The notes under the pieces were generated by a model. That model saw nothing but the letters and a program-made list of their open reading frames with translations. It was not told the DNA's origin and ran no database searches. Both the position numbers and the translations under genes were made by a program. From Rheinheimera sp. (GTDB lineage: Bacteria; Pseudomonadota; Gammaproteobacteria; Enterobacterales; Alteromonadaceae), in NCBI RefSeq assembly GCF_030824435.1, contig NZ_JAVBXS010000041.1, forward strand, positions 1 to 51,174: a DNA stretch of 51,174 nt. Direction: 5' to 3'. Positions 27,861-49,840 of this stretch are shown piece by piece. Position 1 is the first letter of the stretch. Each line of letters opens with the position of its first letter.

Positions 27861-29270
27861 ATGAGTCAGCATAAGTTATCGCAACTGGAAAAAATTGGTT
27901 TTGGTGCCGGCGATATGGCGGTGAATGTCGTGATCTCGGCAATGATGCTGATCATTACCTTTTTTTACACCGACGTGTATGGCATGAAACCGTCCGACAT
28001 GGCGCTGATGTTTTTGCTGGTCAGGGTACTGGATGCGGTGACAGATCCGCTGATGGGTTTGCTGACCGATAAATTCACCAGTCGTTGGGGTCGTTACCGG
28101 CCTTATTTATTGGTGTTTGCTGTGCCTTTTGGTATTTCGGTCTTTTTAACTTTTAGTACACCTGATTTGGATTACAACGCCAAACTGGTTTGGGCTTATG
28201 CCACTTATATTTTTGTCACACTGATGTTTACCGCTGTGACTATTCCTTATATCTCCTTAATTGGTGTGATGACAGATGACCCGAAAGAGCGTTTGTCGGC
28301 CAACGGTTATCGGTTGTTTTTTGCCAAAATTGCTGCTTTTGCTGTGACCATCATTGTGCCTTTACTGGCTGGTGCCGACTATTGGCAAGGAGACAAAGCC
28401 GCCGGTTATCAGGCCGCTATGGGGCTGATGGCGGTATTGGCGGTGTTATTTTTCCTGTTTTGTTTTTTCACCACCACAGAGCGGTTGGAGCATAAAGTTG
28501 ATCAACAACCCTTGCGTCAGCAGTTTGCTTTATTGCTGAAAAACGACCAGTGGCTGGTGTTGTGTGGTGTTTGTGTGCTGGGGACTGTCGGTTATGTAGT
28601 GCGGGGTTCTGTCGCTTTGTATTACGCCAAATATTATCTGGGCGGCGACACCACAATGCAGTCATTGTTTTTATCAACAGGTGTGGGTGCAGCCATTTTA
28701 TCTATGGTGGCCTCTACCTGGATCACCAAAGTGTATTGCAAAGTAAAGTTGTTTAAATACAGCCAGATGGCAGTGGGACTGTTAAGTCTGCTGATGTTTG
28801 TGCTGGTGCAGCCGGGTGACGTTTTATTGGCTTTTGTGTTGTTTTTCCTGATTTCTTTTGTGGTGGATTTACATGCACCTGTGTTCTGGTCGGCCATTGC
28901 TGAAGCTGTGGATTATGGCGAACATAAAACCGGTCAGAGGGTTGCTGGTTTGTCTTTTGGCGGTATTTCATTTTGCCAAAAAGCCGGCATGGGTGTAGCC
29001 GGTGCCTTAGTTGGCTGGTTGCTGGCCGGTTTTGGCTATCAGCCGGATGTGGCACAAAGTGCGCTGGCATTAACCGGCATAGCGCTGATGCTGACCCTGA
29101 TCCCCGGTCTGTTTCATTATGGGGTTGGGGTGTTGATGCAGCGTTACCGCATTACCGACCAGGCTTACCGGCAGTTATTGGCTGAATTAAATGTTAAACC
29201 GGCGACGGCATCTTTGCCGTCAGCCGCAACGTCATCCGCAGTAGAAAAAGGACTTCAGAGTCATGCTTAA
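27861..29270 (+). CDS. GPH-family sugar:cation symporter (MFS)
   Basis: About 469 residues with twelve hydrophobic helices. Family marks are KIGFGAGDMAVN at the start, DAVTDPLMGLLTDKFTSRWGRYRPYLL (the GPH signature after helix 2) and CQKAGMGVAGALVGW late. These inner-membrane carriers import pentosides, hexuronides or free sugars with H+ or Na+. The ATG at 27861 is used; an adjacent GTG at 27858 is nearly as well placed against AAGGA. It overlaps the GH43 gene behind it by eight bases, so the likely cargo is arabinose oligomers that this enzyme then cuts in the cytoplasm. Confidence 0.92.
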   Translation: MSQHKLSQLEKIGFGAGDMAVNVVISAMMLIITFFYTDVYGMKPSDMALMFLLVRVLDAVTDPLMGLLTDKFTSRWGRYRPYLLVFAVPFGISVFLTFSTPDLDYNAKLVWAYATYIFVTLMFTAVTIPYISLIGVMTDDPKERLSANGYRLFFAKIAAFAVTIIVPLLAGADYWQGDKAAGYQAAMGLMAVLAVLFFLFCFFTTTERLEHKVDQQPLRQQFALLLKNDQWLVLCGVCVLGTVGYVVRGSVALYYAKYYLGGDTTMQSLFLSTGVGAAILSMVASTWITKVYCKVKLFKYSQMAVGLLSLLMFVLVQPGDVLLAFVLFFLISFVVDLHAPVFWSAIAEAVDYGEHKTGQRVAGLSFGGISFCQKAGMGVAGALVGWLLAGFGYQPDVAQSALALTGIALMLTLIPGLFHYGVGVLMQRYRITDQAYRQLLAELNVKPATASLPSAATSSAVEKGLQSHA

Positions 29271-41602: not shown

Positions 41603-42769
41603 TTAATTATTAAAAACAAATTCTCCAGAGCACCATGCCACTGAACGGTTTCGGCCATTTTCTTTGGCATGGTAGAGGGCGTCGTCTGCTTGTTTGATCA
41701 GTGAGTCTAAATCCTGGTTTGGTTGGGCGATGACGTAACCGATACTGATGGTTATTTTGGCGCCAGGCACTATTTGCTGAGCTTCAATTTGTTGTCTTAA
41801 TAGTTCGGCTTTTTCTGCCGCTTGTTGCTGATTTACGCCCGGAAGGCAGACCAGAAATTCTTCTCCGCCCATGCGAAAAACCAAATCGTAGTTTCTAAAG
41901 GTGGCCTGACTGACGGCAGCCACCTGACGAATGACCTGGTCACCCATTTGATGGCCAAAGTTGTCGTTTACACTTTTAAAATGGTCGATATCAAATATCA
42001 GCAGTGCCATAGGCTGATGATTCCGCAGACAACGATTGAGCTCAGCGTTTAGCCTGTCTTGCATTGAATATCTATTGAGTAAACCTGTCATTGGGTCACG
42101 TTCTGCCCGAACTTCCAGCTCCAATTGTCTTTGCCTGGCTAAAATTATCAGGCCACCTGTCAGTATTAAAGCGGCATATATTGTCAGACTAAACCAGCCG
42201 AGTTGGTGCACAAATGGATTCGGTTCGGCAGCGGTAAAACTGTATTTTCCTGTGATAAACAGCGCACTGCGTAACAACATCTGTGCAATGTTAAAAAACA
42301 TTACACACTGAAAGAAGGTCACTACTTTGCTGAACTTACCGGGGGTTGAGGTAAACAATAAGCGTAAGCACAGGACGTTAACTGCGCACATGATGGCAAA
42401 TCCAATTAATAGTCTGCTGAACTGATCTTGCTGGAATAAAGGCAGGAACCAGACTGAGTAGGTTAGAGTGGCGAACAGAACCAAATAATAACGTTGTAGT
42501 GGCACCTGCAACAGTCGGTACAAGGCGCTTAGAATCAATAAATGAATAACCACTGTAATTGTATTAATAAAACCAGGGAGGATAAAATACGGCAGTGCAA
42601 CATGATCGCGCATAATGGCAATAAATGCATGCATTATCAGGCAACAACCACTCAAACTAAAATCAAGCAGGTATTTTTGAGTGAGGTTTCTGCGGTACTC
42701 AATGCCAAAAAAAATGGCGGTGAATAAGCCAATCACCAGATTAATGGCGGCTAAAGTAAATAAATCCAT
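41603..42769 (-). CDS. Membrane diguanylate cyclase (GGDEF)
   Basis: 388 residues. Six to seven N-terminal hydrophobic helices (about 5-210) lead to a GGDEF domain starting at DPMTGLLNR. The active site reads GGEEF (301-305), with RNYD five residues ahead, the RxxD product-inhibition site, so the enzyme should be active and feedback controlled. FDIDHFKSVND is the metal/GTP segment. It makes cyclic di-GMP; the membrane sensor input is unknown. Single gene; weak ribosome site. The 191 bases 42770-42960 beyond its start show nothing else. Confidence 0.93.
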   Translation of the reverse strand: MDLFTLAAINLVIGLFTAIFFGIEYRRNLTQKYLLDFSLSGCCLIMHAFIAIMRDHVALPYFILPGFINTITVVIHLLILSALYRLLQVPLQRYYLVLFATLTYSVWFLPLFQQDQFSRLLIGFAIMCAVNVLCLRLLFTSTPGKFSKVVTFFQCVMFFNIAQMLLRSALFITGKYSFTAAEPNPFVHQLGWFSLTIYAALILTGGLIILARQRQLELEVRAERDPMTGLLNRYSMQDRLNAELNRCLRNHQPMALLIFDIDHFKSVNDNFGHQMGDQVIRQVAAVSQATFRNYDLVFRMGGEEFLVCLPGVNQQQAAEKAELLRQQIEAQQIVPGAKITISIGYVIAQPNQDLDSLIKQADDALYHAKENGRNRSVAWCSGEFVFNN

Positions 42770-42960
42770 TTAAGTTTTATATCCCTGAAACAATCGTTAA
42801 ATTGTTGATTTTCTTTACAACACAAAAAGCAATATAGGTGATGACACGAGCGAGTACCTATTATTGCTCAGAATATAAGCTTACTCTAATTGAAGTCAAG
42901 GATGATTCGGAATAAACCAATAGGGTCTGGTGGCTCTGGGGTAAGTTATGGGCAATCCGG

Positions 42961-43200
42961 CCATATGCAGAGCATATGGCGTTCGCGCAGCAGTAAGTCA
43001 GATTGCTGACTTGCTGAAAGACCGGGCGGACCCATCAGGATTGACTCGCCGCATCCTGCGACTCGCCCTACGGGCAGCGCGTTGCGCTGTGCCAAAACGC
43101 TCCCGGCTTATACTCGTATCATCCTGCGGGTCGGCTGCGCCGTTCCAATTTGTTCCAGACAAATTGGTGGTCGAACAACATGTTCTCATCCGATAGGGTG
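42961..43200. repeat. Tandem multi-hairpin repeat, copy 1
   Basis: A 240-base unit made of successive hairpins: CCATATGC-AGA-GCATATGG (42961-42979), AGTAAGTCAG with CTGACTTGCT (42992-43015), CGCA-TCC-TGCG, CCAATTTG with CAAATTGG (43145-43167) and GAACA-ACA-TGTTC. Read on the minus strand it contains AATCCTGATGGGTcCGCC (13-base core 43030-43042), 17 of 18 bases identical to the 3' end of the tRNA-Arg fragment at 43429. It follows tRNA-Arg on that strand, like the tRNA-tail repeats of the E. coli tyrT operon (RtT). Confidence 0.7.
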
Positions 43201-43385
43201 CCATATGCAGAGTATATGGCGTTCGCCCGGCAGCAAGTCAGACTGCTGACTTGCTGAAAGACCGGGCTCACCCATCAGGATTGACTCGGTACATCCTGTA
43301 CCTCGCCCTTCGGGCGTTGCTTCGCAACGTCCCAAACGGCAGTCCTGCCGTTTGGTCGAACAGCATGTTCTCATCCGATAGGGTG
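43201..43385. repeat. Tandem multi-hairpin repeat, copy 2
   Basis: A 185-base second copy starting exactly where copy 1 ends. It keeps the same order of hairpins: CCATATGC-AGA-GTATATGG, AGCAAGTCAG/CTGACTTGCT (43232-43255), GGTACA-TCC-TGTACC, GCCCTTCGGGC, GTTGC-TTC-GCAAC, CCAAACGGCAG with CTGCCGTTTGG, and GAACA-GCA-TGTTC. Several stems differ in sequence from copy 1 but still pair. The tRNA-like core is at 43270-43282. Confidence 0.7.
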
Positions 43386-43396
43386 CTATAAATGCA

Positions 43397-43420
43397 AAAA
43401 CCACCTGAAAAGGTGGTTTT
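43397..43420 (-). terminator. tRNA terminator
   Basis: AAAACCACCT-GAAA-AGGTGGTTTT, a perfect stem; on the minus strand it directly follows the tRNA-Arg 3' end and ends in a T-run. Confidence 0.85.
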
Positions 43421-43428
43421 GACATTTA

Positions 43429-43473
<45 letters not shown>

Positions 43474-43612
43474 CGAGAAAAATATAAATATTTCATGCAC
43501 TTAGATGAACAAGGGTGAACAATTATGGTCTATAACTATCTGATATCAGGTGAGTTTTTTTGGCCTGTTTGTTCTTCATCGTTCATTCAGTTTCGTGGCT
43601 GCACGATGGAGT

Positions 43613-43633
43613 TGCTATAAATATGCTATAAAT
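43613..43633. repeat. Direct repeats near the integrase start
   Basis: TGCTATAAAT occurs at 43613-43622 and 43624-43633, eleven bases apart, and again at 43384-43393 on the other side of the att core. These could be integrase arm-type sites. Confidence 0.4.
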
Positions 43634-43645
43634 GGAAAATCAGCG

Positions 43646-44881
43646 ATGGCAATCAAGGCCAAAATTTCCCAATCGACCATCAAAAATCTTCGTCCTGAAG
43701 ACAAGCGGATTAACGACACCGATCTGGCTGGTTTTCATGCACTCATCGCCGCAAGTGGCAAAATAACCTATTACCTGAATTATCGTCTGAACGGCAAACA
43801 AGGCAATTTTAAACTTGGCGTGGAAGGTCAAATTACGCCTGCCATTGCTCGGGATTTGGCAAAGCAAAAAGCCGGTGAAGTTGCCAAAGGCACAGATGTT
43901 CAGGAAGTAAAAAAGCATGAGCGGCAAGCCCGAAAGCTTGAAGCACAATCTACGCTGAAAAACTTTATCGAATCCAAATTCGCCCCTTGGCTTTATTCCC
44001 AAAATCCAAAAACAGCCAAAGCGCGCATTGACGTCTTTAACACCAGTTTTGCCCATCTGATGGATTACCAGTTAGCCGATATAAAGCCGCATTTAATTGA
44101 GCAATGGCGCATCGAACGCAAGGCCAAAGGCAATAGCAATGCCACCATTAACCGGCAAATAACTAACCTGCAAAGCTGTTTAAGCCGAGCGGTGGAATGG
44201 GAGGTGATTGAAAAGCATGAACTGAACAAAGTGAAGCGCTTGCCTGAAGACAATTCCAAAATTCGCTACCTATCCAAAGTTGAGGAAAAGGCACTACGCG
44301 CCACCATGCGCGAGCGGGACGCGAGAATTAAACAAGAACGCAGCAACGGCAATAAACATCGGGAAGACCGCAGTTATGAGTTGTTGCCTTGTTTAAGTAG
44401 CAAAACCTTTGCTGATCATCTGGAACCCATAGTGCTGCTGGCAATGAATACCGGCATGCGGCGCGGCGAAATTCTAAGCCTGTGCTGGGAAAACGTCAGT
44501 TTTGATACCAAAACCCTGACAGTACAGTTTGAACATGCCAAATCAGGCAAAACCCGCCATATACCGCTGAACGGTGAAGCATTCCGCACTTTGCAAAGTT
44601 GGCAAGCCGACACCGGCGACACCGGCATTGTGTTTAAAGGCCAAAACGGCAAAGCCATGACTGACATTGGCAAAGGTTGGGAAAAACTACTGGAAGATGC
44701 CGGTATTACTAATTTCCGTTTTCACGACCTGCGCCACCACTTCGCCAGCAAACTGGTGATGGCTAGTGTCGATTTAAATACCGTTCGTGAACTGTTAGGC
44801 CATGGCGATTTAGCCATGACCTTACGCTACGCCCACTTAGCGCCGGAACATAAAGCGGCTGCTGTGAATTTGATTGGATAG
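43646..44881 (+). CDS. Tyrosine integrase of the island
   Basis: About 411 residues from the ATG at 43646 (MAIKAKISQS); the frame is open from a GTG at 43550 but that stretch is non-coding in look. An N-terminal DUF4102-like arm-binding domain (about 1-90), a SAM-like core-binding domain (about 100-200) and the catalytic domain follow. Catalytic residues: Arg in NTGMRRGEIL (about 272), HDLRHHF (H360, R363), LLGHGDLAM (H386) and the nucleophile Tyr in TLRYAHL (Y395). Complete and probably active. It lies directly beside the tRNA-Arg att core, reading into the island. Confidence 0.94.
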   Translation: MAIKAKISQSTIKNLRPEDKRINDTDLAGFHALIAASGKITYYLNYRLNGKQGNFKLGVEGQITPAIARDLAKQKAGEVAKGTDVQEVKKHERQARKLEAQSTLKNFIESKFAPWLYSQNPKTAKARIDVFNTSFAHLMDYQLADIKPHLIEQWRIERKAKGNSNATINRQITNLQSCLSRAVEWEVIEKHELNKVKRLPEDNSKIRYLSKVEEKALRATMRERDARIKQERSNGNKHREDRSYELLPCLSSKTFADHLEPIVLLAMNTGMRRGEILSLCWENVSFDTKTLTVQFEHAKSGKTRHIPLNGEAFRTLQSWQADTGDTGIVFKGQNGKAMTDIGKGWEKLLEDAGITNFRFHDLRHHFASKLVMASVDLNTVRELLGHGDLAMTLRYAHLAPEHKAAAVNLIG

Positions 44882-44891
44882 GTATAACTAA

Positions 44892-45848
44892 ATGATTCAG
44901 AAAGAATATTATCAGTTGGATGAACTGAATAGCAGATTTCAGCTGACTAATGCCGATATTAAGTACTTCTTCGATAAATCTAAGCTGGTGCCGGTCTTTA
45001 ATTTGCCATTGAAGAGTTATGTAGTCGGGACTTTTGCTCAGAGTCGTTTTGTAGGGTACGGGGCTTGCCATTACAAAGGTTTGGTATCAATTTTGAACCA
45101 GAATTTTTTGGAGCTGTGGGACAATAGTAAAACCGAGGTTGAACGCGTAATTCTTCGGGATATGTCAGTAATCCAGAACTATACCGAAAACAGCCCTTTC
45201 CAAGCGGTATTACCAACGAATAGCATTTATGCATGGGAGCAGAAAGCACAGCCTGCACTCAGGGGCGATTGTTGCATGGCTATTTTTTTACCAGAAGAAA
45301 TCCAAAGCGCTTCACACTTCTTTAGTGGAAGATTCGCAGAGCTAGCTACTTCCACACATTTATCTGAGCCGGTGCGTAATCTTGCACAGCAAACAGCAGA
45401 GAAGTGTAAAACTGCCCCAGCTATTTCCCATAAAAAAATTACTCAGATATTTAAGCTAACTGACGTGTGTGTTTTGCATTCAGATTTGGTTCGTCTAGGT
45501 GTGATCAAGGAAACAAGCAATAGAGTTATTGTCACTAATGCAACCCAACAAGAAAAGCCCAGCATCAGTAATACTGCAAAATTTGCAAATCCTTTTCATA
45601 AGTTGATTGGTCAGATTTTGAGTGAACACAAAAATATTAAGACAAAAGGAGTGATTCGGATTTTATCTGAAGAGGTTAAAAAACAAGAAGATTCAAGAGA
45701 TTATGATCACGAAAATATTCTACTGGATGATGTTGACGGTGTGTTTATCTGGCGAGATTTTTCTGCCAGAAAAACTGAACGGCATTGCAGTATTAACAGT
45801 ATTAGAAACGTGATACGTGATGTGAAAGTTGCTATGCAGGGCAACTAG
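44892..45848 (+). CDS. Unknown island protein
   Basis: 318 residues, soluble, no recognised domain. The N-terminus (YYQLDELNSRFQLTNADIKYFFDKSKLVPVF) reads like a winged or MerR-type helix-turn-helix with a modified sequence-recognition region, seen in regulators of mobile elements. The C-terminus (NPFHKLIGQILSEHKNIKTKGVIRILSEEV) is helical. It starts ten bases after the integrase stop, so both may share a transcript. An attC-like sequence follows 16 bases after its stop. Confidence 0.6.
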   Translation: MIQKEYYQLDELNSRFQLTNADIKYFFDKSKLVPVFNLPLKSYVVGTFAQSRFVGYGACHYKGLVSILNQNFLELWDNSKTEVERVILRDMSVIQNYTENSPFQAVLPTNSIYAWEQKAQPALRGDCCMAIFLPEEIQSASHFFSGRFAELATSTHLSEPVRNLAQQTAEKCKTAPAISHKKITQIFKLTDVCVLHSDLVRLGVIKETSNRVIVTNATQQEKPSISNTAKFANPFHKLIGQILSEHKNIKTKGVIRILSEEVKKQEDSRDYDHENILLDDVDGVFIWRDFSARKTERHCSINSIRNVIRDVKVAMQGN

Positions 45849-45863
45849 TTCAAGCATTTTAAG

Positions 45864-45935
45864 GCGCAACTGAACTGAACTAGTACACCTGATCTGCGCG
45901 AAGCAAACGGAGCGGGGTTGGTCGCCTTGTTAGGC
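45864..45935. other. attC-like sequence
   Basis: On the minus strand the 72 bases begin GCCTAAC (RYYYAAC, perfect) followed by AAGGCG, and end in GTTGCGC (GTTRRRY with one mismatch); the middle contains CGCTCCGTTTGCTTCGCG. This is the layout of an integron cassette recombination site. Outer arms GCATTT/AAATGC and AAGGCG/CGCCTT add inverted symmetry. It begins 19 bases after the stop of the minus-strand gene at 45955. May be a decayed site. Confidence 0.35.
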
Positions 45936-45954
45936 GCGGCTCAAATGCACTAGC

Positions 45955-46509
45955 TCAGAATAGAGTACCCTGCTCGTTCTTGAGAAATCCAATCTTCTCT
46001 TTGAGGTTTAATTTTTTATCAGCTTGCTGGTAAGCATTTTCACTCATGTGAGAAACCAGACGCTCAAGGTCGGAAACCTCTTTAATTTTTAAGAATTCTT
46101 TTGCTTTGTTTATGTAAACCAAGGACATTTTCTTTCTTGTTAATAGTTCTATAGCGTTACTTAGCGTGCCAGTGCTTTTGGTATCCCATACCATAAGGCC
46201 ATAGTCGCAATCTTTGGCCATTTCAATGTCTTTTGCTGTGAAGAAAGCACGTGTCCCGGGTGTGGTGTTTGAATGGATTTTCTTTGTGATCCAGTGGCCT
46301 ATGTTATTTCTCGGCTTTTCGCCAGAGCAATAGACAACAACTGATTTTGTGTGTTTAGATTCCAAGTAAGCTTGAATTGAGCTGTCGACACCATCGGCAT
46401 CGCCCAATATTATTTGATATTTTGATTCTATTATATTGTTTATTCTTTCAAGAACATCAGGATCAAGATTCTTGATTTTCATCGAGCCGGATATGAAAAC
46501 TTTGTACAT
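45955..46509 (-). CDS. SLOG-like Rossmann nucleotide-binding protein
   Basis: 184 residues. The N-terminus (VFISGSM, then ILGDADGVDSSIQAYL at about 35-49) and the later DYGLMVWDTKSTGTLSNAIELL (about 102-122) form the two loop signatures of the SLOG/LOG/YspA-like Rossmann group, which bind nucleotides or nucleotide-derived signals. No membrane segment. Translation is coupled to the phosphoribosyltransferase gene by TAATG, with GGAGG just before. AT-rich relative to the chromosome. A role in nucleotide-based defence is an inference from family habits and location. Confidence 0.7.
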   Translation of the reverse strand: MYKVFISGSMKIKNLDPDVLERINNIIESKYQIILGDADGVDSSIQAYLESKHTKSVVVYCSGEKPRNNIGHWITKKIHSNTTPGTRAFFTAKDIEMAKDCDYGLMVWDTKSTGTLSNAIELLTRKKMSLVYINKAKEFLKIKEVSDLERLVSHMSENAYQQADKKLNLKEKIGFLKNEQGTLF

Positions 46510-47090
46510 TATAGCCTCCTCGTTACCGTTGCAACGTAAACGTCTCGGATTTTACTATAACTTCTGAGGACGTTGGTAGCCGCTTCAAGGGATGAACCGG
46601 TATCAAATAGATCGTCGATGATTAATACATCATGTTTCCCTTGTGATAGTACGTCATTTACGGTGAACGCTCCCATGAGAGTTGATACTTTCTCTTCTCT
46701 AGTTCCAATATCTTTCATAGCAGATGTTACTGTTGTTTTTACTAATAAATCTTCAACACAAGGGATGCCCATTAGTTTGGCTAGTTCCCTAGCTATTTCT
46801 GTTACTGGCTGGCGTAACCTTTGCTTTGATGCGGGCATAGGAATAATAAGCCCACATGACGAAAAGGCCGCACCCAGAGATTGATGCAACTGATTGGCGA
46901 TAATTGGTGCTTTGGAGAAGTCTGAACGATACTTAAGTTGGAAGAGGGCTTCGCCAATTTCTGGTCTAATAGTATCGAACTGCATGTGGCCTTGTTCATT
47001 GTAGCCAATCGGAGTGCTGCTTGTTGTGTGTTTATCAAGAGAGAATCCGCGCGTCCATACGCCAGATATTTCTTTAATTTTTACATCCAT
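46509..47090 (-). CDS. ComF-like phosphoribosyltransferase
   Basis: 193 residues. The PRPP loop is VLIIDDLFDTGSS (about 155-167) and the segment IPMPASKQRLRQPVTEIARELAK matches the ComF branch of type I phosphoribosyltransferases. The zinc finger typical of ComF N-termini is missing; instead there is a short strand-rich N-terminus. AGGAG precedes the ATG. It forms a two-gene operon with the SLOG-like protein, one-base overlap. It may make or salvage a nucleotide that its partner senses (inference). Confidence 0.8.
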   Translation of the reverse strand: MDVKIKEISGVWTRGFSLDKHTTSSTPIGYNEQGHMQFDTIRPEIGEALFQLKYRSDFSKAPIIANQLHQSLGAAFSSCGLIIPMPASKQRLRQPVTEIARELAKLMGIPCVEDLLVKTTVTSAMKDIGTREEKVSTLMGAFTVNDVLSQGKHDVLIIDDLFDTGSSLEAATNVLRSYSKIRDVYVATVTRRL

Positions 47091-47206
47091 ATGTATCTCC
47101 TCTCGTTGTTCACAAATACCTCAAAATATCTGATTTTTTCATTGAACTCAAAAATATATAAATTTTTAACCTGCATTTTTAAATATTCCCTTTTGGCTCG
47201 TTGTAA

Positions 47207-47326
47207 CGCTTAAATTAAGCGATAATCTAAATTTGTGTTACGGATAAGTTGCGATTGGCTGATGCTGGCAGAATTCAGAGCAACTAAATTGCATTAGAAA
47301 CTGCATTTTTGCACTAAAAACTGCAT
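47207..47326. repeat. Repeats in the regulatory gap before the AlpA-like gene
   Basis: The 292-base gap between divergent genes holds a perfect palindrome CGCTTAA-A-TTAAGCG (47207-47221) and direct repeats AAACTGCAT at 47298-47306 and 47318-47326, 20 bases apart, among further TGCA tetramers. Likely binding sites for the element's regulator. Confidence 0.45.
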
Positions 47327-47382
47327 ATGCAAAAACTCATACCTGAAGATGTCCTTGTTCATTAACGTGCAAGGAAATCAAC

Positions 47383-47622
47383 ATGAGTACATCAAACAAA
47401 AAAGTCCTATCCGAAATCGAAACTGCTGAATACATCAGCATGAGCCGTTCTTTCCTGCGTCAGTCACGGATGGAAGGCAACCGCGAGAACCGCACACCAG
47501 CACCGCCATTTATCAAAATTGGCCGGTCGGTACGCTACCTGAAAGATGATTTAGATCTGTGGTTAAGCAACTTGCAGAAGTTCAGTCACCTGAGCCAGTG
47601 CGGAGGTGCTTCGGTATGCTGA
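47383..47622 (+). CDS. AlpA-like helix-turn-helix regulator/excisionase
   Basis: 79 residues. The pattern of TAEYISMSRSFLRQSRMEG, PPFIKIGRSVRYLKDDLDLWL is the AlpA/HTH-17 winged-helix family common in P4-like satellites and islands, where it drives integrase expression or acts as excisionase. AAGGA precedes the ATG. Its stop overlaps the next start (ATGCTGA). It opens the replication operon. Confidence 0.85.
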   Translation: MSTSNKKVLSEIETAEYISMSRSFLRQSRMEGNRENRTPAPPFIKIGRSVRYLKDDLDLWLSNLQKFSHLSQCGGASVC

Positions 47623-47921
47623 TTACCCATCCAAAACTTTCGCCTAATGTGCAAACTTTGCTGGATTGGTTTGTGGCAGATGCCAGCCATGCGGTGGAGT
47701 GGTGTACGTCAGTTGGGCGCAGCATGGATAAGCTGGTGATTTTTGGTGAAGAGCCCATTAAGTCATTAAAACCAGCACTGAATACCCTTATTCAGTATGG
47801 TTTGCTCCAGCAAACTGAAGTGTTTAATACCGGCCTGCGCTGGACTCGGTTAACAGTTGCAGCAGGCACCAGCTTTCAGGTTTTAGCGGAGAGTGACGAT
47901 GACAACTCGCAAACCAACTGA
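47616..47921 (+). CDS. Small island protein of unknown function
   Basis: 101 residues from the ATG at 47616, nine bases after GGAGG; the frame is open from 47559. A helical N-terminus (LSPNVQTLLDWFVAD) precedes a winged-helix-like block (IKSLKPALNTLIQYGLLQQTEVFNTGLRWTRLTV). It overlaps both neighbours, the AlpA-like gene by 7 bases and the replication gene by 23, so it is probably part of the replication control unit. Confidence 0.65.
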   Translation: MLITHPKLSPNVQTLLDWFVADASHAVEWCTSVGRSMDKLVIFGEEPIKSLKPALNTLIQYGLLQQTEVFNTGLRWTRLTVAAGTSFQVLAESDDDNSQTN

Positions 47922-49827
47922 ACTTGAACGCTTGTTTCAGCAACTAGATGAAGTTGATTCTGCCTTTTACCTGTCGCTCCACTCAGATGATCGTAAGTTT
48001 CTGCGCGGTAAGTTGGAAGGCTTGCCCTTTGCCATTCAGAAAATTTTGTTTAACCACTACCGCTCAACGGCAAATATCGTTAAAGCGAATACTGAGCTTC
48101 GGTTAGTAACGGCTGAAATACACCGGATATTGCCGGTGATATTCCGTATTAATTTTGATATGTGCGAAAAGCAAAGGCATGATTTATCCGAAGAGAATTC
48201 GCGCCGAATGAGCCGGATTTTTTTGCGTGAACTCAATCAAGCCCGTTCGATGTTGTTGCCGGAGTTTCTGAAAATTTCCGAAATCGTTTCAGAAACTCAT
48301 TCAGAAAATGCACTCGTGGTTTCAGAATATCTCAACTCAGTTTCTGAAATCATTTCAGAAACCGTTCTGAAAAATTCCGAAATAGTTTTAGAAATTCCAG
48401 AAACAGTTTCTGAACCAGTTTCAGAGAATTTCCTGCAATTTCCAAAGGCATTTCAGAAACCCGTTAACGCGCAACTCCGCACTACTGCCGGAGATTCCGG
48501 AAATATTCCTGAAAAAAACTCCGTTAACGCACAAGTGCGGACGAAGGCGGAACAGTCCACATATTTTGCTTGCGCTGATTATATGAAACAGCTTGGATTA
48601 CAGCCGCCAAAACTCACACGCAAAACAGGCTTTGCCGGTTGTCTGAAACGGATGCAGGATGCGAAGTGGTGGTGCAGGCAATTGCGGCGAGTACAAAAAC
48701 GCAAAACCGAACAGGTAATGGCATTGCTTGGCAAAGTCAGTAAAAGGGCTGGCAAATATTGTAGTGATTTAACTTTGAAAAACCGCTTAGCGGAAAAGGC
48801 AGCTTCAGCTGATTACATGGAACGTACTTTTATCGTGAACCAAGATCAGCAGCGTTTTTCACTGAAAGAAGTTGCCGATAAAAACGTCTCAAACCCGACA
48901 ATCCGCAAAGGCGAGTTGATGACTCGCATGCGCGGCACTGAAGATATTGCCAAAGAGCTGGGGCATGTTGGCTCTTTTGTCACCTTAACTTGCCCGTCTA
49001 AATATCACTGCGCTTATGCCAGCACAGGCGACAGAAACCCAAATTGGAATGGTGCCACACCTTACCAAGCGCAGCAGTATTTAAACCGAGTTTGGGCAAG
49101 AATTAGAGCAGAACTGGCGCGACAAGAAATAGCTATTTACGGCCTTCGCGTTGCCGAACCCCAGCATGACGGCACACCACATTGGCATATGATGTTGTTT
49201 ATGGCACCCGAGCATTTAACAGCTTTTAGTGCTGTGGTGATGCAATACGCACTGGCTGAAGATGGCGATGAAAAAGGCGCACAGGAAAATCGCGTGAAGC
49301 TGGTGGATATTGACCCAACCAAGGGTTCTGCCACTGGTTATATTGCCAAATATATTTCTAAAAATATCGACGGCAAAGGCATAGATACTGACATAGACGG
49401 CGGTGATGCCAATGTTGCAGCGCAGCGGGTAGAAGCTTGGTCAAGCTGCTGGGGCATTCGCCAGTTTCAGCAAATTGGCGGTGTGCCTGTTACGCCTTGG
49501 CGTGAACTGCGCCGAGTAAAGGAAGGTACTGAACAGGACGAGCAGTTTGAAGCAGTGCGCGTTGCAGCAGATAAAGGCGATTGGAAAAGTTACGTGCAAC
49601 TGATGGGCGGCGTGTTCTGTAAGCGCAAAGACCTGTTAATCCGGCCTTATTACCATGTTGAAGCAGACCAACAAACCGGCCTGATTAAAACCAGCTGGTT
49701 TGATAACCTCATTGTGTTAAAGCTCAAAGGCGTTCTGTATGCAGGTCAGGCAATTATCACCCGCCTGCACCAATGGCGGCTGGAACAGGCCGTAGGCCGC
49801 TCTTCGCCTTTACTTGGAGTTCTGTAA
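47899..49827 (+). CDS. Replication endonuclease, phage P2 gpA type (HUH)
   Basis: About 642 residues from the ATG at 47899, seven bases after GGAG. The C-terminal half is a phage GPA domain: the metal-binding HUH motif PHWHMMLF in EPQHDGTPHWH (about 420-430) and two candidate nucleophile tyrosines in YIAKYISKN (about 480-484), the YxxxY arrangement of gpA. GSFVTLTCPSKYH is the preceding conserved strand. Such enzymes nick one strand to start rolling-circle replication. Residues about 120-190 are a repetitive SE-rich stretch whose DNA holds a dense palindrome array. Confidence 0.92.
   Translation: MTTRKPTELERLFQQLDEVDSAFYLSLHSDDRKFLRGKLEGLPFAIQKILFNHYRSTANIVKANTELRLVTAEIHRILPVIFRINFDMCEKQRHDLSEENSRRMSRIFLRELNQARSMLLPEFLKISEIVSETHSENALVVSEYLNSVSEIISETVLKNSEIVLEIPETVSEPVSENFLQFPKAFQKPVNAQLRTTAGDSGNIPEKNSVNAQVRTKAEQSTYFACADYMKQLGLQPPKLTRKTGFAGCLKRMQDAKWWCRQLRRVQKRKTEQVMALLGKVSKRAGKYCSDLTLKNRLAEKAASADYMERTFIVNQDQQRFSLKEVADKNVSNPTIRKGELMTRMRGTEDIAKELGHVGSFVTLTCPSKYHCAYASTGDRNPNWNGATPYQAQQYLNRVWARIRAELARQEIAIYGLRVAEPQHDGTPHWHMMLFMAPEHLTAFSAVVMQYALAEDGDEKGAQENRVKLVDIDPTKGSATGYIAKYISKNIDGKGIDTDIDGGDANVAAQRVEAWSSCWGIRQFQQIGGVPVTPWRELRRVKEGTEQDEQFEAVRVAADKGDWKSYVQLMGGVFCKRKDLLIRPYYHVEADQQTGLIKTSWFDNLIVLKLKGVLYAGQAIITRLHQWRLEQAVGRSSPLLGVL
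48265..48459. repeat. Array of 13 TTTCnGAAA palindromes inside the replication gene
   Basis: TTTCnGAAA with at most one mismatch starts at 48265, 48275, 48287, 48299, 48320, 48341, 48353, 48364, 48374, 48386, 48407, 48419 and 48451; six are exact. Spacings are 10-12, 21 or 32 bases, about one, two or three helical turns. Three copies are in a different reading register from the other ten. Candidate origin or binding array. Confidence 0.75.
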
Positions 49828-49840
49828 ATAACTGTACAGT

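Follow-up and report, generated by a model that had tools for sequence, protein, structure and literature searches.

In-gene origins and satellite iterons are already known, the in-gene kind being represented by the iterons of lambda O and by the 11-bp bind repeats of pMV158. Among satellites, the closest described layout is that of the PICMI, which in the accessible part of its description (PMC10803314) comprises an integrase gene, an overlapping or adjacent gene, alpA, a short gene without known function and a replication gene; in the same part, AlpA is central to induction in the PICMI studied, and the question is raised of how the helper activates the early regulon. The origins of Gram-negative PICIs, as described in the available portion of PMC6092414, consist of two iteron sets flanking an AT-rich region. 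For the gpA-type replicons, position 28576, towards the 3' end of gene A, is annotated as the origin in the record of phage 186 (U32222.1), with the remark 'located by similarity with P2'.

The window, that is, the whole stretch of 51,174 nucleotides of Rheinheimera sp. DNA analysed here, contains an integrative element with the gene order integrase, cargo, AlpA-like helix-turn-helix protein, 100-aa protein and gpA; it stops before any right end of the element appears, and no tailed-phage genes were seen in the portion of the element inside it. The integrase is a tyrosine integrase (43640–44881, + strand; PF00589, 105.4 bits). Because the stretch at 43428–43473 copies the 3' end of tRNA-Arg(ccg), and recurs inside the tRNA-Arg(ccg) gene that bounds the element of Rheinheimera sp. 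4Y26 on the right, we assign the former as the probable attL core and the latter as the probable attR. Just left of attL, within 43000–43400, ACCCATCAGGATTGACTCG occurs twice and by eye resembles the tRNA-Arg 3' end. The cargo region (44892–47090) holds a 318-aa open reading frame (+), a 184-aa protein (45955–46509, −) that has no family match and, adjoining the latter, a phosphoribosyltransferase (46509–47090, −) that matches the PsyrT and ShosT models; the last two may form an anti-phage toxin–antitoxin cargo. The AlpA-like protein of 79 aa (47383–47622, +) scores 20.5 bits against HTH_17, below the cut-off of 27, and matches PHROG 66 (excisionase/regulator) at E = 3e-5. The 100-aa protein, termed Up1 (47619–47921, +), is conserved between alpA and gpA of gpA satellites, with homologues at E ≤ 0.01 in 24 of 26 AlpA–gpA loci; its structural model comprises a helix plus a beta-wing, to which winged-helix matches are weak and partial.

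The gpA-type rolling-circle replication endonuclease of 644 aa (47893–49827, +) scores 310.7 bits against Phage_GPA (PF05840; curated cut-off 31.4) and matches phrog_91, 'nicking at origin of replication'. We compared it with its relatives in Rheinheimera sp. SA_1 (L033, 82% protein identity), in Rheinheimera sp. 4Y26 (L034) and in the distant L006 (49–52% identity). A further relative in a metagenome-assembled genome (L035/L172, G298; 90–91% identity) matches residues 355–644 alone, with one stop in the L172 match, and is probably a degraded copy. Residues 135–209 of the window protein are modelled with a pLDDT below 50 (AlphaFold2, 25 sequences), and this linker, predicted to be disordered, houses most of the array described below together with the first iteron. 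The gpA alignment has no invariant column from N66 to G249, although L80 and P81 are nearly invariant.

Within gpA, 195 bases (48265–48459) carry 14 copies of the palindrome TTTCnGAAA at up to one mismatch, six of them exact, and base counts over the array yield an 11-bp unit near RTTTCNGAAAY. Eleven sites lie in a codon register that encodes S-E and three in one other, which encodes F-x-K or V-L-K; the first-pass annotation, whose observation is confirmed, had counted 13 sites split 10 and 3. The helical spacing that it had proposed is borne out, since the resultant of 0.94 at a period of 10.95 bp was equalled by none of 4000 random and none of 4000 frame-kept placements. Two extra one-mismatch sites, TTCCGGAAA and TTCCTGAAA, start in phase at 48495 and 48506 (48495–48514) and lie between a pair of GTTAACG iterons; at the equivalent positions of the SA_1 relative, both sites read TTTCGGAAA. 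When every 4-bp palindromic arm with a spacer of 0–3 bp was scanned blindly, the pair TTTC and GAAA with a 1-bp spacer ranked first in the window (16 sites at up to one mismatch, against a maximum of 7 in 40 first-order Markov samples), and the same motif also came first in L006 and in contig C56 of the genome from which the window comes (P = 0.05 for C56). Exact TTTCNGAAA was observed eight times in the window versus 1.24 expected, with six of the eight within the array. In the 3.9 Mb of genome sequence available, the forward strand contains six pairs of exact sites separated by 1–14 bases, three in the array and three in a second mobile element on C56. Elsewhere, in a forward-strand search of 18 genomes, such pairs were found in G083 (three, all in gpA), G137 (four, three in gpA) and G282 (one), the G282 pair and the non-gpA pair of G137 lying within other open frames. 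A blastn search of the array region against the phage collection gave nothing beyond four matches of 25 bases at E = 0.4.

With 11 of 14 sites in a single codon register and a linker predicted to be disordered, the palindromes could be the by-product of a low-complexity S-E repeat maintained at the protein level. The pattern of substitution speaks against this in the main. Synonymous change is suppressed across codons 101–220 (48193–48552, +), which span the array and the iterons: relative to SA_1, synonymous differences affect 10 of 85 comparable codons inside this block (12%) versus 170 of 419 elsewhere (41%; p = 1e-7), while amino-acid differences are more frequent inside (34/119 versus 81/500; p = 0.004). 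Relative to 4Y26, synonymous differences are likewise fewer inside (7/108 versus 92/475; p = 9e-4), and amino-acid differences do not rise significantly (11/119 versus 26/501; p = 0.13). The block was picked after the scan had been viewed, and a permutation over all 100-codon windows served as control, giving for the best window P = 0.0005 (4Y26) and 0/2000 (SA_1). At third positions, changes relative to SA_1 amount to 3 of 42 in the site cores, 2 of 12 in the centres, 7 of 26 in the spacers and 200 of 521 in the rest of the gene; at all positions, counted over 18 sites of which two have two mismatches, they amount to 14/144, 4/18 and 18/78 in cores, centres and spacers, respectively, and the 20 iteron bases show zero changes.

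Codon-based controls bear on the same question. When synonymous codons were drawn from those outside the region, 7.3 sites at up to one mismatch were expected in the window versus 14 found (P = 0.0002), and 1.4 were expected in L006 versus 7 found (0/5000). Permuting the region's own codons left a weaker excess (window, P = 0.011 at one mismatch; SA_1 exact sites, P = 0.73), and at two mismatches the window showed no excess in either control (P = 0.15 and 0.82). At one mismatch, the excess is marginal in L007 (P = 0.015 and 0.08) and not significant in L036. Because synonymous change drops while amino-acid change rises relative to SA_1, the array is, as judged from these sequence comparisons, a DNA signal and not a protein repeat. 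The suspicion raised at first pass, that a protein repeat alone would be insufficient, is thus upheld, also by the three sites in the second register; the comparison of gpA homologues suggested there finds the DNA motif retained where the protein differs, both in SA_1 and in L006, which keeps motif and period (0.94 at 10.90 bp). The second array of the genome, on C56, encodes residues unlike those of the gpA linker, and we regard the S-E repeat as a very improbable explanation. The helical phase would also suit intrinsically curved DNA built from phased A/T tracts, but the curvature of the array, as estimated with a wedge model, does not exceed that of synonymous shuffles (P = 0.83), and the C and G of the motif are conserved, so that this possibility carries hardly any weight.

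The nick site itself appears to lie elsewhere. A putative nick site, or double-strand origin, CTTGGAGTTCTGTAAATAACTGTAC, spans the gpA stop codon at 49813–49837 (+) and matches the origin of phage 186; it is the single match in the window at up to three mismatches and the single exact match in the genome. The phage 186 origin sequence, CTCGGAGTTCTGTCAATAACTGTAC, is also carried by PSP3, Midge, EtG, SEN1 and a Vibrio phage. Across 29 gpA loci, the motif is located at or just after the stop codon in 18 and 185–338 bp downstream in 8, with variants in the remaining 3. It is read as LLGVL, as NLEFCK or, after the stop codon, not at all, and therefore behaves as a DNA signal. The viral contigs L194, L195 and L196 carry the exact site and all encode Phage_GPA; the Phage_GPA scores of L195 and L196 are alike, probably reflecting the same protein, and L196 by eye also encodes a Zot-like P-loop protein. 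In G137, a second nick site accompanied by the last 30 gpA residues (C17:470117–470219; L187, L202) lies at a distance of 10.3 kb from that of the intact gene; from its sequence, it is what remains of a further satellite in the vicinity. Nicking at the conserved site of the window is what we infer by homology to phage 186, and on this homology the nick would lie 1.35 kb downstream of the array. Bind sites of rolling-circle replicons are usually nearer the nick site than this, which weighs against the reading that we prefer below. We reject the array as nick site, and the first-pass proposal that it might be the origin, made on the ground that P2-type genes carry their origin inside the gene, is not supported, given the location of the 186 origin near the 3' end of gene A and of the matching site at 49813–49837; the repressor array and the decoy that were proposed alongside may still apply. 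Among the literature matches listed, none gives the P2 nick position.

A complementary-strand origin (sso) is expected upstream of the nick site, where the array lies, and the palindromes might accordingly act as hairpins in displaced DNA or in mRNA. The fold z-scores of −6.0 (+ strand DNA), −7.7 (− strand DNA) and −5.7 (RNA) agree with such a single-strand element, as do two compensated pairs between the window and SA_1 in one 12-bp hairpin. When the cores were kept and the other bases shuffled, however, the window folded no better than chance (z = 0.03 and −0.13), and SA_1 and C56 only slightly better (P = 0.015–0.025). One pair of the 12-bp hairpin is broken in 4Y26, three other consensus pairs are each broken in one of three sequences, and the C56 element, which encodes a DUF5906 protein, has no gpA nick site in the 11.4-kb piece searched. 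A role as a single-strand element is thus unlikely.

The array is accompanied by a second motif. Two identical iterons, CCGTTAACGC, lie at 48461–48470 and 48521–48530 and belong to a family whose consensus, TTCCGTTAACGGAA, was derived from 68 GTTAACG sites taken in both reading directions. Within 800 nt of their start, 26 AlpA–gpA genes contain 58 GTTAACG sites, where codon permutation predicts 11.7; of the 58, one frame accounts for 48 and the second stop-free frame for 10. At least two sites occur in 18 genes, one in 3 and none in 5. By comparison, 40 gpA genes without AlpA contain 10 sites in total and at most one each, all of these counts being made without kinship correction and many of the 40 controls being closely related to one another. 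The 26 genes represent one per element, with duplicates (L003, L004, L005, L008), one locus with short upstream DNA (L013) and those in which no AlpA was found (L002, L011, L019, L032, L035) excluded; L045, L055, L077, L078 and L080 were excluded from the controls for short upstream DNA. In primase elements, 12 of 26 matches were retained after partial or weak ones had been set aside, and AlpA is present in 7; at least two GTTAACG sites stand upstream of or at the primase start in 5 of these 7 versus 0 of the 5 without AlpA. Sequence association thus links the iteron with elements of AlpA type, whichever of the two replicases they carry, in a manner that does not separate ancestry from function. 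As expected of an iteron origin, the repeats sit inside the replication module and are constrained as DNA. The idea that AlpA binds GTTAACG for excision was rejected, there being no such site in 42376–48461, the region of int and attL.

The second array of the genome is found on contig C56, where an AlpA gene (32.3 bits) is followed by a 126-aa open frame and then by a DUF5906 protein (70.3 bits), a primase of the PICMI type. The 126-aa frame upstream of the primase carries 10 sites at up to one mismatch as well as GTTAACG sites; the 10 sites are phased with a resultant of 0.86 at 11.00 bp (P = 0.006) and their 8-site core with 0.94 at 10.85 bp (P = 0.0013). Since C56 and the window share no DNA match of at least 40 bases at E ≤ 1e-5, we reject that the array was exchanged recently. 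The nearest primase relative found, L133 in another genome of the genus (G260; 82% identical), has GTTAACG sites and no array, which indicates that the array is not essential to that replication module. At least six sites at up to one mismatch per 200 nt occur in 4 of the 26 AlpA–gpA genes (window, 4Y26, SA_1 and L006), three of them closely related. Of the 295 genomes of the family and the 375 of the order that were searched, 32 of which belong to both sets, three and two, respectively, show the strict triple pattern, solely in satellite-like elements of this genus. Arrays of TTTCnGAAA type were also observed in the phage contigs L082 (7497–7767), L088 (11250–11423) and L093 (7405–7578), the last of which shares genes with L088; L082 is phased at 10.95 bp and L088 at 11.0 bp, the test excluding one overlapping L088 site and, in the gpA set, one L006 site outside the linker. 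In L087 (2903–3046), such sites lie within a phage gene, by eye that of a replication protein, possibly a parallel case.

This distribution bears on whether the operator-like arrays of both elements recruit or titrate a factor acting in trans, be it a helper repressor, an initiator, a packaging protein or a host regulator. Recognition by a host or helper factor would account for the array tracking the host instead of the replicase: the strict pattern is confined, among the family and order genomes searched, to satellite-like elements of one genus, the array occurs twice in one genome with unrelated replicases, the L133 element has iterons without it, and unrelated phage contigs bear similar non-coding phased arrays. 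Yet the genome has no further exact close pair, hence no visible resident source, there is no known helper phage, and a megablast search of the phage collection gave no match to L088. We therefore consider such a site or decoy a possible but tentative reading.

Our preferred reading, with a probability of about 0.5, is that of a cis-acting DNA element to which protein binds cooperatively, located in the replication/induction module of these satellites and distinct from the nick site. The link to this module follows from the position of the array between alpA and the replicase domain in both gpA-type and primase-type elements, and the cooperative binding of a small dimer from the phased 11-bp palindromes, in which C and G are conserved and the centre varies more freely. 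Contiguous RTTTCNGAAAY units would place binding sites along one face of the helix, on which a small dimeric DNA-binding protein could load cooperatively as a filament beside the TTCCGTTAACGGAA iterons; the array would then most likely act as an origin accessory site or as an operon-internal operator of the alpA–replicase module. The binding, the filament and the function are what we infer from these sequence features. Candidate binders may include AlpA, the small 100-aa protein, a host factor and a helper factor. AlpA is present in both elements, in two subtypes by eye. Up1 was rejected as a general binder: homologues are absent from the 7 loci of primase elements that were searched, and no PDB entry matches its model at E ≤ 0.001.

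Two further proteins were considered and rejected. The CodY box is AATTTTCWGAAAATT, with a 9-bp core identical to an array site; HTH_CodY (PF08222) is absent from this genome (0/1), whereas in a control of 14 genomes B. subtilis, L. lactis and H. volcanii were matched, two over the cut-off. GapR, for which the accessible part of PMC6853979 includes CCGTTAACGG among the test oligonucleotides, was likewise rejected, the GapR domain being absent from the genome. The literature matches listed for the sequence strings concern CodY or, for CCGTTAACGG, GapR, Obg and an oxidase.

More speculatively, the TTTCnGAAA array and the TTCCGTTAACGGAA iterons might constitute a two-motif module common to gpA rolling-circle and DUF5906 helicase-primase satellites, through which one shared trans factor (AlpA, or a helper or host factor) would license replication; we hold this to be conceivable rather than likely. 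If true, the module would occupy whichever reading frame is free, and many small genes of no assigned function that lie between alpA and the replicase could partly be translated control DNA.

In the mostly open-access literature, we found neither the array nor the TTCCGTTAACGGAA iteron nor a PICMI-like element with gpA described among the matches listed. The locus would present a control array that evolves as DNA across two codon registers of a replicase linker, and that recurs in two satellite-like elements of one cell with unrelated replicases, offering a testable handle on the switching-on or recognition of AlpA-type satellites. Like lambda O and pMV158, it has phased repeats linked to an initiator gene, but its nick-site motif lies elsewhere and its array is common to unrelated replicases. 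With the Gram-negative PICIs, as far as the available part of PMC6092414 describes them, it shares iterons in the replication module of AlpA satellites; here, by contrast, iterons and array lie within the replicase coding sequence or upstream of the primase. It resembles phage 186 and the P2-type gpA replicons (U32222.1) in the gpA family and in the 3'-end nick site, which matches the 186 origin CTYGGAGTTCTGT[CA]AATAACTGTAC, and differs from them in its linker array and iterons; the 25-bp nick-site signature marks gpA satellites and is common to phage 186-like phages and small viral contigs. Compared with the PICMI in the accessible part of PMC10803314, the window element is likewise a small integrative element with the order int, alpA-like gene, small gene and replication gene. 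It is distinct in its integration in tRNA-Arg instead of fis, in having no known helper and in encoding gpA in place of the DUF5906/DUF3987 primase, and would represent a satellite class in which gpA replaces the primase.
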